DNA of 55,044 nucleotides. Origin: Alphaproteobacteria bacterium (GTDB lineage: Bacteria > Pseudomonadota > Alphaproteobacteria > SP197). Where the stretch lies: positions 1-55,044 of the forward strand of contig VGDP01000022.1 of NCBI GenBank assembly GCA_016869675.1. The letters are read 5' to 3'. Under the pieces are notes generated by a model that saw nothing but the letters and a program-made list of their open reading frames with translations, had not been told where the DNA came from and ran no database searches. Both the position numbers and the translations under genes were made by a program. This document shows positions 8,692 to 55,044 of the stretch, piece by piece (positions within the stretch are counted from its first letter, which is position 1; each line of letters starts with the position of its first letter).

Positions 8692-10014
8692 TTAACGAGT
8701 AAGCCCAGCGTTCGGCGTGCGCCCCAGCATGCGCTTCAAGCCGGCGTCCGCGCCTGCGGTGTCCGCTCGGTGCGAACTGTGAGAACGGTGCGCTCGCTGC
8801 TGCGACGTGTCGGCGCGTGGCCGGGCCGACGTGACAGGTGGCGCGCCAGCGCTCCGCGATGGCGGCACGGCGGCGGTGACCGCCGGCCGGGCGCCATGCG
8901 CGGCGACCGGCACCTTGACCCCGGTCGTCTTCTCGATGTCACGTAGGTAAGGGCGCTCGGAGGGATCGCAGAACGAGATCGCGACGCCGCCCAATCCGGC
9001 GCGCGCCGTGCGGCCGATGCGGTGGACGTAGCTTTCAGGCACGTTGGGTAGCTCGAAGTTGATGACGTGGCTCACGGCGTCCACGTCGATGCCGCGCGCG
9101 GCGATGTCGGTCGCTACCAGGATCGGCGTGCGGCCTGACTTGAAATCGCTGAGTGCACGCTCGCGCTGGACCTGGCTCTTGTTGCCGTGGATCGCGGTGG
9201 CCCCCAGTCCGATGCCGTCGAGGTGGCGGGCGACCTTGTCCGCGCCCCGCTTGGTACGGGTGAACACCAGCACGCGATCGAAGCCGGACGAACGCAGCAG
9301 GTCAGCCAGCAGCGCCCGCTTGGCTTGGGCGTCGACCAGGTACACCCGCTGGTCGACCTTGTCGGCGGTCTTGGCCGGCGGCGTCACCGCCACGTGGGCG
9401 GGATCACGCAGGTGCTCGCGCGCGAGCGCGTCGATCGGTCCGGGCATAGTCGCCGAAAACAGCAGGGTCTGCCGCTCCTTCGGCAGCGCGCGCAGGATAC
9501 GCTTGATCGGCACGATGAAGCCGAGATCGAACATGTGATCGGCCTCGTCGAGCACGACCGTCGTGCACGTATCCAGCCGGATCGCGCCGGCGGTCATGTG
9601 GTCGAGCAGCCGGCCCGGTGTCGCGACCAGCACGTCGACGCCGCGCGCCATGGCGCGGATCTGCGGGCCCGGCTTGGCGCCGCCGATGACGACCGCGACG
9701 GTCAGGTCGATGCATCGGCCGTAGGCCTCGAAGCTGTCGGCGATCTGGGCCGTCAACTCGCGCGTCGGCGCCAGTACCAGGGCACGGCAGCGCTTCTCGC
9801 GGCGCCGGTCGGGGTTGGCGATCAGCCGGTGCAGGATGGGCAGCGCGAACGCCGCGGTCTTGCCGGTGCCGGTCTGCGCCAGCCCGATCAGGTCGCGACC
9901 GCCCAGCACGGGCGGGATGGCTTGGGTCTGGATGGGCGTAGGGGTGGTGTAACCTTCGTGCTTCAGGGCACGAAGCAAGGGCTCGGCCAGGCCGAGCGTA
10001 TCGAAGCTATGCAA
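8692..10014 (-). CDS. DEAD-box ATP-dependent RNA helicase (RhlE-like)
   Basis: The 440-residue helicase has all core motifs: Q motif (TPTPIQTQAI, about 24-33), Walker A AQTGTGKT (46-53), PTRELTAQI, VLDEADHMF, SAT, and HRIGRTARAG in the second RecA domain. A roughly 70-residue low-complexity basic tail (PSRSAGAPP, then R/H/S-rich) probably binds RNA. RhlE-type helicases remodel rRNA and mRNA structure, often in the cold. The short tail and the PFRxxEK-like linker (PYLRDIEKTTGVKVPV) fit RhlE rather than DeaD/CsdA. It is transcribed alone. Confidence 0.92.
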   Translation of the reverse strand: MHSFDTLGLAEPLLRALKHEGYTTPTPIQTQAIPPVLGGRDLIGLAQTGTGKTAAFALPILHRLIANPDRRREKRCRALVLAPTRELTAQIADSFEAYGRCIDLTVAVVIGGAKPGPQIRAMARGVDVLVATPGRLLDHMTAGAIRLDTCTTVVLDEADHMFDLGFIVPIKRILRALPKERQTLLFSATMPGPIDALAREHLRDPAHVAVTPPAKTADKVDQRVYLVDAQAKRALLADLLRSSGFDRVLVFTRTKRGADKVARHLDGIGLGATAIHGNKSQVQRERALSDFKSGRTPILVATDIAARGIDVDAVSHVINFELPNVPESYVHRIGRTARAGLGGVAISFCDPSERPYLRDIEKTTGVKVPVAAHGARPAVTAAVPPSRSAGAPPVTSARPRADTSQQRAHRSHSSHRADTAGADAGLKRMLGRTPNAGLTR

Positions 10015-18527: not shown

Positions 18528-19928
18528 TCACTTCCGTCGGGTGGTGGATGGGGTCTTGGGCCTGGCCGGAGCGGGCGACGCCCGCTTGGCCAGGTCCTTC
18601 CGCACGCGGGCGATCACGTCGTCCCAGCGGCCGGGCGTCTTCTGCCGGTAGAGCCGCATAGACGGGTACCACGGCGAATCGTCGCGCTCGCTCAGCCAGC
18701 GCCAGTCGGCGGCGTAGCACAGCAGCACCCAGACCGGGCGCCCGAGCGCGCCGGCCAGATGGGCGACCGCGCTGTCGGTCATGATCACCAGGTCGAGCCG
18801 CTCGAGCAGTGCCGCCGTATCCGCAAAATCGTCGAGCACTGGGTCGGCGTCCATGATCAGCCCGCGACAGCCCGAGCCGTGCAGTTCGGCGATCGGCAGA
18901 CCCTTCTGCAGGCTGATGAACGCGACGCCCGGCGTCTCGAGCAGCGGCAGAAAGGTGCGCAGGGTCGTGGCGCGGTTGCGGTTGTTCTTGAAGGTCACGC
19001 TGCCCGACCACACCAGACCGACCTTCAGCCGCCTGGCCGCGGGCGCCAGGAACGCGTCGATCTTGGCGCTCGCGCCGGCCGGCGGCGCCATGTAGGGAAC
19101 CGGTCCGGGCAGGTCGCGCAGGTCGATGCGCAGGACCATGGGCAGGCTGAGCAGCGGACAGTGCACGTCGAAGGCGGGGGCGGGCGCGCCCGCGACCGCG
19201 ATCTCGTCGATACCCTGCACCGTCGCCAGCAGGCGCGCGAGCGGCGGCCGCGTCTCGACGATCACGTGGCCGCCCAGCGCCTTGACGCGCGGAACGAAGC
19301 GGGCGAACTGCAGGCTGTCGCCGAAGCCCTGCTCGCTGGTCAGCAGGATGCGCCGACCGTCGAGCGGCGCGCCGTCCCAGCGCGGCTGGGCGTACGTGGG
19401 CGCCACCACGTCCTTGAGCCACCAGCGCGCTTCATAGGCCGGCCAGCCGCGCGCGAAGTCGGGTTTGGCCAGCAGCGCGAGCGCCGTGTCCCACGGGATG
19501 TCGCGGTCGTCCGGGCGCAGGCTCTGCGCGCGCGCGTACTGGGCCAGGGCCTCGTCCAGCCGCCCGGCGTGCTTCAGCGCGATGCCCAGGTTGTAGACGA
19601 TGCCGGCGTCGTCGGGGCGCAGCGCCACGGCCCGGCGCAGCGTCGCGATCGCCTCGTCCAACCGGTGCAAGTCCTTCAGCGCGTTGCCCAGATTCGACAG
19701 GGTCTGGGGGTTGTCCGGGTCCGCTTCGAGCGAGCGGCGGTAGCACGCCACCGCCTCGGCGAACCGCTCGGTCTTGCGTAGCGCGACGCCCAGGTTGTTG
19801 AAGGCGGGCAGGTGGTTCGGGGCGCGCGCCAGCAGCGCGTTGTAAAGGGCGATGGCCTCGTCGTCGCGGCCCTGGCGCTGGGCCTGCAGGCCTTGGTCGA
19901 ACAGCGCCTTGGGATCGGGCTCCGCCAT
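18528..19928 (-). CDS. TPR-repeat protein with glycosyltransferase-family-9-like C-terminal domain
   Basis: This 466-residue protein has an N-terminal array of about four TPRs, for example DEAIALYNALLARAPNHLPA, AFNNLGVALRKTERFAEAV and LSNLGNALKDLHRLDEAI. A GT-B-like domain follows, with ILLTSEQGFGDSLQFARFVP, KVGLVWSGSVTFKNNRNRA and a terminal DLVIMTDSAVAHLAGALGRP motif of the ADP-heptose transferase type. Such proteins are common in alphaproteobacteria and probably glycosylate surface or flagellar components; the acceptor is unknown. The start is MAEPDPKALFDQG. It is followed by the damaged SDR on the same strand with an 11-bp gap, so the two may share a transcript. Confidence 0.88.
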   Translation of the reverse strand: MAEPDPKALFDQGLQAQRQGRDDEAIALYNALLARAPNHLPAFNNLGVALRKTERFAEAVACYRRSLEADPDNPQTLSNLGNALKDLHRLDEAIATLRRAVALRPDDAGIVYNLGIALKHAGRLDEALAQYARAQSLRPDDRDIPWDTALALLAKPDFARGWPAYEARWWLKDVVAPTYAQPRWDGAPLDGRRILLTSEQGFGDSLQFARFVPRVKALGGHVIVETRPPLARLLATVQGIDEIAVAGAPAPAFDVHCPLLSLPMVLRIDLRDLPGPVPYMAPPAGASAKIDAFLAPAARRLKVGLVWSGSVTFKNNRNRATTLRTFLPLLETPGVAFISLQKGLPIAELHGSGCRGLIMDADPVLDDFADTAALLERLDLVIMTDSAVAHLAGALGRPVWVLLCYAADWRWLSERDDSPWYPSMRLYRQKTPGRWDDVIARVRKDLAKRASPAPARPKTPSTTRRK

Positions 19929-19940
19929 GGCGAAAACCTA

Positions 19941-20020
19941 GAGCAACTTCCGATCAGGCTGAACCACTTAGGTTCAGCCTGATCGGAAAAGGTTGCTCGC
20001 GATTCAACAAGCTAGAGCGG
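19941..20020 (+). repeat. Dispersed 80-bp palindromic repeat, copy A1
   Basis: A 16-bp perfect stem (19950-19965 with 19971-19986, loop ACTTA) is enclosed by an outer 7-bp pair, GAGCAAC (19941-19947) with GTTGCTC (19992-19998). The tail GCGATTCAA-n-TAGAGCGG follows. The same 80-bp arrangement occurs inverted at 54915-54994 with 61 of 80 positions identical by hand alignment. It lies just upstream of the TPR gene start on the minus strand. Confidence 0.85.
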
Positions 20021-20057: not shown

Positions 20058-20081
20058 GAACGGGGCCCGCGGGCCCCGTTC
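20058..20081 (-). terminator. Perfect GC-rich palindrome, likely terminator of the PuuD-like gene
   Basis: GAACGGGGCCCG-CGGGCCCCGTTC is a 24-bp perfect palindrome 24 bp beyond the stop of the PuuD-like gene on the minus strand. On that strand it is followed by TCTCGTTTC, a weak T-tract. It probably forms the transcription terminator. Confidence 0.6.
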
Positions 20082-20104: not shown

Positions 20105-20713
20105 TCAGTAGAGATTCTGCGCCGAGACCATGGCGTAGAGCATCGGCACAGACAGCATGGTGTTGGTGCGCGAGAACAGCATCGCCCGGCGCGCCGCCGC
20201 CTTCTTCTCGTCGGGCGTCGCCTCGACGATGCCTAGCGCCTTCTTCTGGTTGGGCCAGATGACCATCCAGACGTTGAACGCCATGATGCCGCCCAGCCAC
20301 ATGCCGATGCCGATGGCGGTGTGCTTCTCGACGCCGTCCGACAGACCCAGCACGATCGCCTCGATCAGGTAGCCGTTCATGGCCGCGACGATCAGGCCGG
20401 TGACCAGCGTCACCAGGGCGGCCCAGCGGAACCAGAACAGCGCGGTGGGCGCGATCACCTTGCCGATCGCCGGCTTCTGCTCGTCGGGGATCTTCGGCAT
20501 GCTCGGGATCTGCACGAAGTTGAAGTAGTAAAGCAGGCCGATCCACATGATGCCGGCCAGCACGTGCAGCCAGCGGAACGCGAACGTCCACCAGGCGTGG
20601 CCCAGCGCGAGCACGTTCGAGCCATGCCACAGCAGCATGATGACGATCATGATCACCAGCAGCACGAAACCGGCGATCACCGTCGTGTTGAGCTTCTCCA
20701 GGATCTTAGCCAT
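20105..20713 (-). CDS. Urate-hydroxylase PuuD-like membrane domain protein
   Basis: The 202-residue polytopic protein resembles the membrane domain of PuuD-type urate hydroxylases (urate oxidase N-terminal family). Recognisable features are WTFAFRWLHVLAGIMWIGLL, the segment YYFNFVQIPSMPKIPDEQKP, KHTAIGIGMWLGGIMAFNVW and WPNQKKALGI. True PuuD proteins also carry a C-terminal cytochrome c domain. It is absent here, so urate oxidation by this protein alone is doubtful. It may be a stand-alone homologue with another redox partner. The ATG at 20713 follows GGGGGAAGGGA on its strand, a strong ribosome site, and is preferred over one 15 bases upstream. Confidence 0.78.
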   Translation of the reverse strand: MAKILEKLNTTVIAGFVLLVIMIVIMLLWHGSNVLALGHAWWTFAFRWLHVLAGIMWIGLLYYFNFVQIPSMPKIPDEQKPAIGKVIAPTALFWFRWAALVTLVTGLIVAAMNGYLIEAIVLGLSDGVEKHTAIGIGMWLGGIMAFNVWMVIWPNQKKALGIVEATPDEKKAAARRAMLFSRTNTMLSVPMLYAMVSAQNLY

Positions 20714-20797
20714 TCCCTTCCCCCGCAATCGAGGCGCCCGCCCGCCGCGGGGCGTTGGTCTCGAATCGGCGGCACTATAACGGAAAGTGCCGTTGCC

Positions 20798-39663: not shown

Positions 39664-40490
39664 CCTGCCCGATCTGCGCCGGTACCGAGGCGCGCGAGAT
39701 CCCGTGCAGCCGACGCTACACCGCTGGCTGGCCGATCCATGTCTGCACCGGCTGCCGCCTGGTCCACGTGCGGGAGCATTGCTCGGCCGATGCGATCGCG
39801 CGGGTCTGGTCCGAGGAGCTTTTCGCCGACAGCCCCGATCCGAAAAGCGTGCTCTACCAGGCCACGTTGCCGGCCGTGCTGGCGCGCCTGACCTACGTGG
39901 CCGCGACGCTCGACCAGTCGGTCGGCCTGAAGGACCGCGCGGTGATCGACATCGGCGCCGGCACCGTCGCCTTTCTCGATCTCGCGGCGGCACGCGGGGG
40001 GCGCACCTTCGGCATCGAGCCCTCGGCCGCGAACTGCGCGCGCCTGCGTGCCCAGGGCCACAGCTGCCACGAAGGCACGGTCGAGAGCTACGCGGCCGGT
40101 GGCGGCGCGGACCTGGTCACCATCCTGTGGACGCTCGAGTGTACGTCGGACCCGCGCGCCATGCTGGCGGCGGCGCACCGCGTGCTTGCCGATGGCGGCC
40201 GACTGTGTGTCGCCACCGGCAGCCGAATCCTGGTGCCGTTCAAGAAGCCGCTCGACTACTACCTGGGCGAGGGCAACCCGGACATCCACCCGTTCCACTG
40301 GAGCGCCGCGACGCTCGCGGCGGTCCTGGCGGTCGCCGGTTTCCGGATGACCTGGACCAACAGCTATATCGTCTCCGACGTGCTGTGCGTCATCGCGGCG
40401 AAGGGCGAGGCCGACTGGACCGGCGACCACCCCGACGCGGCTCTTGCCTTCTTCGACCGCTGGGACCGGGAATCCCCCATGTACCAGTAG
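39660..40490 (+). CDS. SAM-dependent methyltransferase with N-terminal zinc-ribbon
   Basis: The 276-residue protein begins MTCPICAGTEAREIPCS and VCTGCRLVHV, a four-Cys zinc ribbon. A methyltransferase domain follows, with motif I AVIDIGAGTVAFLDLAAARG, IEPSAANCARLRAQGH and VTILWTLECTSDPRAMLAAA. This architecture resembles sugar or polyketide C-methyltransferases, and also class I enzymes acting on lipid-linked sugars; the substrate is unclear. The stop codon lies inside a perfect palindrome at 40487-40515. Confidence 0.85.
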   Translation: MTCPICAGTEAREIPCSRRYTAGWPIHVCTGCRLVHVREHCSADAIARVWSEELFADSPDPKSVLYQATLPAVLARLTYVAATLDQSVGLKDRAVIDIGAGTVAFLDLAAARGGRTFGIEPSAANCARLRAQGHSCHEGTVESYAAGGGADLVTILWTLECTSDPRAMLAAAHRVLADGGRLCVATGSRILVPFKKPLDYYLGEGNPDIHPFHWSAATLAAVLAVAGFRMTWTNSYIVSDVLCVIAAKGEADWTGDHPDAALAFFDRWDRESPMYQ

Positions 40491-40515
40491 GGGCGGGTTT
40501 GAAACCCGCCCCTAC
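40487..40515. repeat. 29-bp perfect palindrome spanning a stop codon
   Basis: GTAGGGGCGGGTTT (40487-40500) and AAACCCGCCCCTAC (40502-40515) are exact inverted copies around a single G. The TAG within it is the stop codon of the methyltransferase. It lies between convergent genes and could terminate transcription from both sides. From memory, near-identical palindromes recur in unrelated GC-rich genomes, so it may be a REP-like mobile unit. Confidence 0.85.
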
Positions 40516-43735: not shown

Positions 43736-43763
43736 AAAAACCGCCGCAGCCTCGGCTGGGCGG
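43736..43763 (-). terminator. Intrinsic terminator between SAM-II aptamer and metY
   Basis: On the minus strand CCGCC-CAGC-CGAG-GCTG-CGGCGG forms a stem of about 9 bp with one bulge, followed directly by TTTTT. It lies between the riboswitch aptamer and the metY start, as expected for the expression platform. Confidence 0.75.
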
Positions 43764-43770
43764 TCAGACC

Positions 43771-43828
43771 GCTCACTTTAGCTGCATTTCTAACGCGCCC
43801 GCAAGCTGAACCTCAAATCGGCGCGAGG
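43771..43828 (-). promoter_or_regulatory. SAM-II riboswitch
   Basis: The minus-strand leader of metY matches the SAM-II aptamer layout. The P1 helix is CGCGCC (43825-43820) with GGCGCG (43799-43794). The loop is GATTTGAGGTTCAGCTTGCG. The conserved 3' element is AATGCAGCTAAAG, with GCTAAAG at 43782-43776. The known SAM-II RNA has the same order of CGCGC, GAUUUA, GCGCG and AAUG-AGCUAAA elements. SAM-II occurs almost only in alphaproteobacteria, upstream of methionine genes. SAM binding forms a pseudoknot that lowers expression. Confidence 0.9.
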
Positions 43829-43893
43829 CGGACGAAACAGCATCGCGCCGGGGCTGTCAAGCGCGGCCGTGACGAAGGGCCGGCAATGTTCCG

Positions 43894-53356: not shown

Positions 53357-54568
53357 CTACCCCGTGAACGCCTGGATGCCGGTCTGGGCGCGGCCGAGGA
53401 TCAGGGCGTGCACGTCGTGGGTACCTTCGTAGGTGTTGACCGACTCAAGGTTCAGCACGTGGCGGATCACGTGGTACTCGTCCGAGATGCCGTTGCCGCC
53501 GTGCATGTCGCGCGCGGCGCGGGCGATCTCGATGGCTTTGCCGCAGCTGTTGCGCTTGATCAGCGAGATCATCTCGGGCGCGGCACGACCCTCGTCCTTC
53601 AGGCGGCCGACGCGCAGGCACGCCTGCAGGCCGATGGCGATGTCGGTCTGCATGTCGGCCAGCTTCTTCTGGATGAGCTGGTTGGCGGCGAGCGGCCGGC
53701 CGAACTGCTTGCGGTCCAGGGTGTACTGGCGTGCGGCGTGCCAGCAGAACTCGGCGGCGCCCAAGGCACCCCAGGCGATGCCGTAGCGCGCGTTGTTGAG
53801 GCAGCCGAACGGTCCCCTGAGCCCCTTCACCCCCGGCAGCAGGTTGTCGGTGGGCACGGCCACGTCGTGCATGACGATCTCGCCGGTGGGCGAGGCGCGC
53901 AGACTGAACTTGCCCTCGATCTTGGGCGTCTCGAGGCCCTTCATGCCGCGCTCCAACACGAAGCCGCGGATGTCGCCCTCGTCGTCCTTGGCCCACACCA
54001 CCATGACGTCGGCGAAGGGCGCGTTGGAGATCCACATCTTGGCGCCGTTCAGCACGTAGCCGCCGTCGACCTTGCGCGCGCGCGTCTTCATGCCGCCGGG
54101 GTCCGAGCCGTGGTCGGGCTCGGTCAGTCCGAAGCAGCCGACCAGTTGGCCGGTCGCCAGGCCGGGCAGCCACTTCTGACGCTGCGCCTCGGTGCCGTAG
54201 GCGTGGATCGGGTGCATGACCAGGCTGGACTGCACGCTCATCATCGAGCGGTAGCCGGAATCGACCCGCTCGACCTCGCGCGCGGCCAGGCCGTAGCAGA
54301 CGTAGTTGACCCCGGCGCAGCCGTAGCCGTCGATCGTCGAGCCCAGAAGCCCCATGTCGCCCATCTCCTTGAGGATCGAGCGATCGGCGCCCTCGTTGCG
54401 GAAGTCGGCCTTGACGCGCGTCATCAGCCGGCTCTGGGCGAACTCGCGCGCGGCGTCGCGGATCATCCGCTCGTCCTCGCTCAGCTGCTCGTCGAGCAGG
54501 AACGGATCGTCCCAGGCGAAGGCGGCGGGGGAGGCGGCGCTCGAAGACTTGGTCGCTGGCTGGGCCAT
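53357..54568 (-). CDS. gcdH: Glutaryl-CoA dehydrogenase
   Basis: The 403-residue acyl-CoA dehydrogenase oxidises and decarboxylates glutaryl-CoA to crotonyl-CoA (lysine/tryptophan catabolism). Diagnostic text includes [60 protein letters not shown], and the catalytic Glu in [16 protein letters not shown] (about E381). Gene length is normal. It is transcribed alone, with its promoter region towards the DUF6898-like gene. Confidence 0.93.
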
Positions 54569-54662: not shown

Positions 54663-54905
54663 ATGCCCGACGCCACGACGCTGCAGGACGTCATCATCGA
54701 GTACGCCCCCGAGGGCGCGTAAGTGCGCGTCTCGGCGTTCGATCCGCGGACGCTGGCGGAGGTTTCCATTGTCGGCGCCGCCGCGGCCGGGCACGCGATC
54801 CTGGAACGCATGGTGCTGCGCAGGCTCGACTGGGTGCTGGCGCGCAAGCGCGGGTGGGCCAGAGTGGGGACCGATCAGGTGGCATCAGTTTGTGATTCCG
54901 CCTGA
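54663..54905 (+). pseudogene. DUF6898-like small protein interrupted by an in-frame TAA
   Basis: The ATG at 54663 opens MPDATTLQDVIIEYAPEGA and then codon 20 is TAA (54720-54722). The frame continues as VRVSAFDPRTLAEVSIVGAA and LERMVLRRLDWVLARK. Together the two parts match a small alphaproteobacterial protein pattern (V-x-V-x-A-x-D-P-x-T-x-x-E-V-S-I-x-G, then L-R-x-L-x-x-V-L) which I recall as DUF6898. A tyrosine codon TAC/TAT changed to TAA would explain the stop. GTG at 54723 directly after it has GAGGG upstream and could restart translation to give a 60-residue product. The C-terminal end runs beyond the usual length. Confidence 0.6.
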
Positions 54906-54914
54906 TCGGGCAAG

Positions 54915-54994
54915 CCGCTCTAAGACTTTGAATCGCGAGCAACTTCATCCGATCGGACGGAACCCGGACGGTTCCGCCCGATCGGATGTTGCTC
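54915..54994 (-). repeat. Dispersed 80-bp palindromic repeat, copy A2
   Basis: This is the reverse-complement copy of the unit at 19941-20020. The outer pair is GAGCAAC (54937-54943) with GTTGCTC (54988-54994). The inner 16-bp stem is 54949-54964 with 54970-54985, and the tail CCGCTCTA ... TTGAATCGC lies at 54915-54936. Stem bases that differ from copy A1 are mostly changed on both arms. A partial arm-like sequence, GATTCCGCCTGATCGGGC, precedes it at about 54894. Confidence 0.85.
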
Positions 54995-55044
54995 TAGGTT
55001 GGGCGCCCCAAGGCGCCCGCACCGACCGTGACCGCTTCCCCTGC

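Follow-up and report, generated by a model that had tools for sequence, protein, structure and literature searches.

The two related 80-bp units in the window (55,044 bases, the entire contig C22 of the 3.49-Mb draft genome G000) are, judging from sequence, very probably two copies of a non-autonomous IS630/Tc1-mariner-type miniature transposon (MITE). What moves is the entire composite of about 140 bp, in which a short linker connects two long imperfect hairpins. Insertion occurs at TA, mostly within CTAG, and the TA is duplicated.

Sequence comparison confirmed the two units where the original prediction had placed them, identical at 61 of 80 positions. A 22-base anchored pattern occurred twice in the window and in none of 100 shuffles; as the family also occupies about 24 places in the genome, chance is ruled out for the pair. 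The paired stem exists, although it was described as 16 bp and hairpin 1 is in fact longer, with 7 outer and 18 inner pairs and a 3-nt bulge on the 3' side; its predicted fold is about -46 kcal/mol in each window unit. Between copies A and B, the two paired changes first reported (A-T to G-C and T-A to G-C) and the G-T wobble were all present, but double changes number three in all, the third being T-A to A-T at the first inner pair of hairpin 1. Similarly, the conserved tail TAGAGCGG is present but is in fact the start of a second hairpin, in a repeat unit of about 140 bp.

Copy A (19938-20020, plus strand) has hairpin 1 and the linker but just the foot of hairpin 2. The TA at its 5' edge (19939..19940) lies inside a CTAG at 19938-19941 and is assigned as target-site TA from the sequence and from the TA duplication in sister genomes. 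Hairpin 1 spans 19941..19998 (outer stem 19941-19947/19992-19998, inner stem 19948-19965/19971-19988, bulge 19989-19991), the linker 19999..20012 with a GANTC site (GATTC, 20001-20005), and the foot of hairpin 2, TAGAGCGG, 20013..20020; the remainder of hairpin 2 is absent, and the foot is followed by GGGGACCGA, as in a flipped or truncated copy on contig C32. Copy B (54859..54997, minus strand) is a near-whole composite matched by the covariance model at 144.8 bits, with its right-hand TA decayed to TG. Sequence and fold place its hairpin 1 at 54937..54994 and its hairpin 2 (TAGAGCGG...CCACTCT) at 54861..54922, with GANTC at 54894. Both window copies look like settled or decaying members of the family.

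The three neighbouring genes described here lie on the minus strand. The start codon of a TPR-repeat protein (18528..19928) is about 10 bp from copy A, and the end of a Urate_ox_N domain protein gene (20105..20728) about 85 bp from it, with a G+C-rich terminator-type palindrome, read from the sequence only, near 20058-20081 in between. An acyl-CoA dehydrogenase gene (53357..54568) starts about 290 bp from copy B. The end of the contig (window 54918-55044) exactly overlaps positions 1-127 and 9412-9538 of contig C28, on which 1-569 and 9412-9980 are direct repeats of 569 identical bp lying 9.4 kb apart and starting at CTCTAAG within copy B; this is an assembly artefact or else the trace of a rearrangement that has one endpoint inside the element.

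The full unit was delimited by genome searches with hairpin 1 and then with its downstream sequence. A covariance-model search found about 24 distinct places in the genome at E values up to 0.001, including two on C28 that overlap the end of C22 in partly identical DNA. The prediction of a dispersed palindromic repeat family therefore stands: further genomic copies exist and keep the conserved pairing. Several are half elements. The general layout is TA-GAGC, hairpin 1, a linker with a conserved GANTC, TA-GAGC, hairpin 2 and GCTC-TA, over about 140 bp (135-140). Full copies in this genome read TA-GAGCAAC, hairpin 1, GTTGCTC, GCGATTCAA plus about 5 nt, TAGAGCGG, hairpin 2 and GCTC-TA. The element, mostly two hairpins, carries no gene, transposase included. 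GANTC was present in 9 of 9 full composites (mean 1.89 versus 0.52 in shuffles) and in 33 of 33 relatives, where it was partly built into the search pattern; its conserved position is the linker in this genome and a bulge near the stem foot in the relatives. In one copy (C1:180502-180662, L002), GTTGCTCGCGATTCAA... is tandemly duplicated over 21-22 bp at the junction of hairpin 1 and linker.

Related composites were found well beyond this genome. Covariance-model matches to hairpin 1 occurred in 10 of 16 same-family genomes, with the same layout and different stems. The pattern formed by the inner feet of both hairpins occurred in at least 119 stretches; among the matches listed were Pelagibius, Kiloniellaceae, Rhodospirillaceae, Rhodospirillales, Aquibaculum and Siccirubricoccus assemblies, and one record titled Anaerolineae. 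Of 289 alphaproteobacteria examined, just 2 carried a strict 18-base pattern of the composite, indicating that each subtype is restricted, and the exact long pattern had no match in public genomes outside G000, so the sequence type found here is lineage-specific. A distant blastn search of plasmid records found no relatives.

Target preference was assessed over many genomes, at 75 distinct sites of insertion. The element had TA to its left in 64 of these, to its right in 67 and on both sides in 58; position -3 was C in 48 and position +3 was G in 55, and there was no conservation farther out. Within the window CTAG is scarce: base composition predicts about 154 occurrences and 32 are seen, which makes the preferred target rare there. 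Empty sites were sought for eight elements of G031 (Pelagibius PL25a_bin.145) that lacked a partner in the hit list of G032 (Rhodospirillales bacterium BBD 1991-14), which was searched with the joined flanks of each element. All eight orthologous places in G032 were element-free, and in seven of them exactly one TA stood at the junction. Such single-TA empty sites are the signature of insertion with TA duplication, which is thus demonstrated in these two relatives. An earlier comparison of G001 with G005 and G009 gave no empty sites, one flank being too diverged. Transposases of the IS630/Tc1-mariner group duplicate TA, as was seen for ISY100 in vitro (PMC2170065), and IS630 prefers the TA in CTAG according to Tenzen and Ohtsubo (1991), as cited in PMC2170065.

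In G001, the gene upstream takes its TAG stop codon from the inserted element in several cases (L103, L108, L114), which fits the targeting of CTAG at the ends of genes. On contig C116 of the same genome (L118), a composite is directly adjoined by another TAGAGCGGATC hairpin and the two have a terminal CTAG in common, as expected of a nested insertion at the element's own CTAG.

Insertion sequences with similar ends were identified. In G000, an IS630-family element on contig C6 (1-1056; NF033545, 145 bits, cut-off 100) has two frames that overlap and join at an A run, and its ends, CTAGAGCGGTTTCAC and CTAGAGCCGATTCAAC, have the form CTAGAGC...GCTCTAG. Ten IS630 relatives on plasmids of Rhizobiales, Paracoccus, Lichenicola and Azotobacter carried exact CTAGAGC at the right end in nine cases and TAGAGC at the left end in eight. 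The similarity extended further for a 1,052-bp IS630 element in Pelagibius IP29b_bin.129: beyond TAGAGC, its right end matched the hairpin-1 outer arm at 17 of 22 positions and its left end the hairpin-2 outer arm at 16 of 22, neither reached in 20,000 shuffles to the precision printed, and the same ends did not match the inner arms of the composite (p 0.5-0.98). The resident IS630 element of G000 was not convincing as a cognate partner of the G000 composite (5-9 of 22 beyond TAGAGC, best p about 0.03); the hairpin-1 end was closer to a Siccirubricoccus IS630 end (15 of 22). The IS630 loci of G009 and G001 showed no clear pair of TAGAGC ends.

A DDE_3 profile found no match in five of nine element-bearing genomes, including both empty-site genomes; most of these genomes are draft assemblies from metagenomes, from which multi-copy insertion sequences are easily lost. 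The missing IS630 genes would suit a MITE moved by another TA-targeting DDE element, such as one of an IS5-family group; TA or CTAG is the target of some IS5-family elements too. An insertion sequence-like end, GTCACCGACTCATAAGCACGCAT, does stand directly at the terminal CTAG of two G000 copies (contig C79, L061 1639-1795, and contig C62, L003 1-23). However, this end lacks TAGAGC and looks like a secondary insertion into CTAG, as if another insertion sequence targets the CTAG left by the element. In Pelagibius, moreover, TAGAGC and the extended similarity are common to IS630 ends and outer arms, and we consider a mover other than IS630 unlikely.

The original prediction pointed to REP elements and a RAYT, a reading that would make this a REP/REPIN-type repeat whose single-stranded DNA is mobilised by a Y1/HuH transposase. 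The likeness to REPINs and REP doublets is real, in that two inverted hairpin units with a spacer form the mobile unit and show compensatory changes (PMC3116915). The search for a RAYT gene recovered one in G000, at C64:501-869, with Y1_Tnp above and REP_Tyr_transpos below the profile cut-off. However, this sole RAYT is bracketed by a different, unrelated palindrome, GTAGGGGCGGGTC, that recurs at dispersed sites of the genome, the window among them: the gene sits between GTAG-type REP hairpins TGTAGGGGCGGGTC...GACCCGCCCCTACGG on both sides, and a matching palindrome, GTAGGGGCGGGTT...AACCCGCCCCTAC, lies at window 40487-40515. Genome-wide, the RAYT-type REP pattern gave 15 exact and 26 one-mismatch matches, versus 26 in all for the reversed control pattern. 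The element itself begins CTAGAGC without a GTAG- or GGAG-type tag beside the hairpin and has no linked RAYT. HuH/Y1 transposition makes no TA target duplication, and the duplications at empty sites fit DDE chemistry instead. Movement by RAYT is therefore extremely improbable.

The predicted stem covariation proved genuine. Over 14 genomic copies of hairpin 1, double changes affected 8 of 18 inner pairs (4.2 in shuffles), with 23 double-change cells versus 7.5 in shuffles (none of 500 reaching 23), pairing cells of 92.6% versus 85.8%, and a covariation score of 0.217 versus 0.094; sliding controls scored far lower. Across the whole composite, double changes occurred in 17 of 51 predicted pairs in G000 and in 28 of 49 among 33 relatives. 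The paired changes are thus real, but they do not prove the selection on an RNA or single-stranded DNA hairpin that was first proposed: the arms could equally stay complementary through template switching from arm to arm or because transposition requires it.

If the hairpins were instead kept for a host RNA function, as terminator, mRNA stabiliser or small RNA, their mobility would be incidental. The very stable predicted folds would suit such a role. Eight presumed orthologous insertions in G031 and G032 were compared, of which three pairs may be wrong alignments; with that reservation, stem bases differed less (about 30 of 794, ~4%) than unpaired bases (26 of 250, ~10%), and four double changes kept a pair. 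However, 13 single changes in the same orthologues broke a pair, outnumbering the compensatory ones, and seven were one-sided changes to another standard pair. The pattern, suggestive only, fits a mixture of constraint or homogenisation with decay and does not single out an RNA function. An Rfam search of the window matched neither hairpin, and insertions are present or absent between sister genomes; a host RNA role thus appears improbable. The only Rfam match elsewhere in the window was a SAM_alpha (SAM-II) riboswitch at 43757-43834 (minus strand, 40.3 bits), upstream of a minus-strand ORF.

For the IS630-type MITE, we infer that the DDE transposase of an IS630-family element would act in trans on the outer ends, recognising TAGAGC and about 20 bp more, and move the element by cut and paste, as ISY100 of the same family does in biochemical assays (PMC2170065). 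The internal stems would then be free to change as long as the arms stay complementary, either because a single-stranded DNA or RNA hairpin is needed or through homogenisation by template switching. More speculatively, and with considerable doubt, transposition could be tied to the cell cycle through the GANTC (CcrM-type) sites in the bulge or the linker: an IS630-type transposase might be licensed when, behind the replication fork, these sites are hemimethylated or the hairpin is extruded, and this requirement would keep the two-hairpin form.

By mechanism, the element belongs with IS630-type MITEs such as RUP of Streptococcus pneumoniae (an IS630-Spn1-type MITE), which likewise is gene-less, uses TA targets and shares ends with an IS630-family element (PMC2229807). 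Going by its description, RUP is about 100 bp with one stem-loop formed from its two ends, whereas the present element has two separate hairpins. RIME (Rhizobium-specific intergenic mosaic elements), also judged by description only, are similarly dispersed alphaproteobacterial repeats with conserved secondary structure (PMC2573895). The layout agrees in form, except in length and GANTC position, with the CIR repeats known from Caulobacter, Brucella and further alphaproteobacteria (Chen and Shapiro 2003, through the account in PMC2229807). As far as that review describes them, CIR are small, gene-less, dispersed repeats with two long inverted-repeat arms and a linker, TA termini and conserved GANTC (CcrM) sites; they are about 110 bp rather than 135-140 bp, and their GANTC lies at or near a terminal loop of one hairpin, in contrast to the stem-foot bulge or linker here.

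That 2007 review listed CIR target duplication as unknown and the mobility mechanism as unresolved (PMC2229807). A target-site duplication and an insertion-sequence partner are proposed here for the present element, which is likened to CIR through the published description as far as the review gives it. The combination of empty sites, a TA/CTAG target and shared IS630 ends offers a specific, testable answer to how a CIR-like element moves. It also follows that a repeat is not necessarily moved by a RAYT with which it shares a genome, and that strong stem covariation among copies of a mobile repeat is, by itself, no proof of RNA function. If the cell-cycle reading were true, the CIR-like repeats of alphaproteobacteria would be a replication-timed MITE superfamily.
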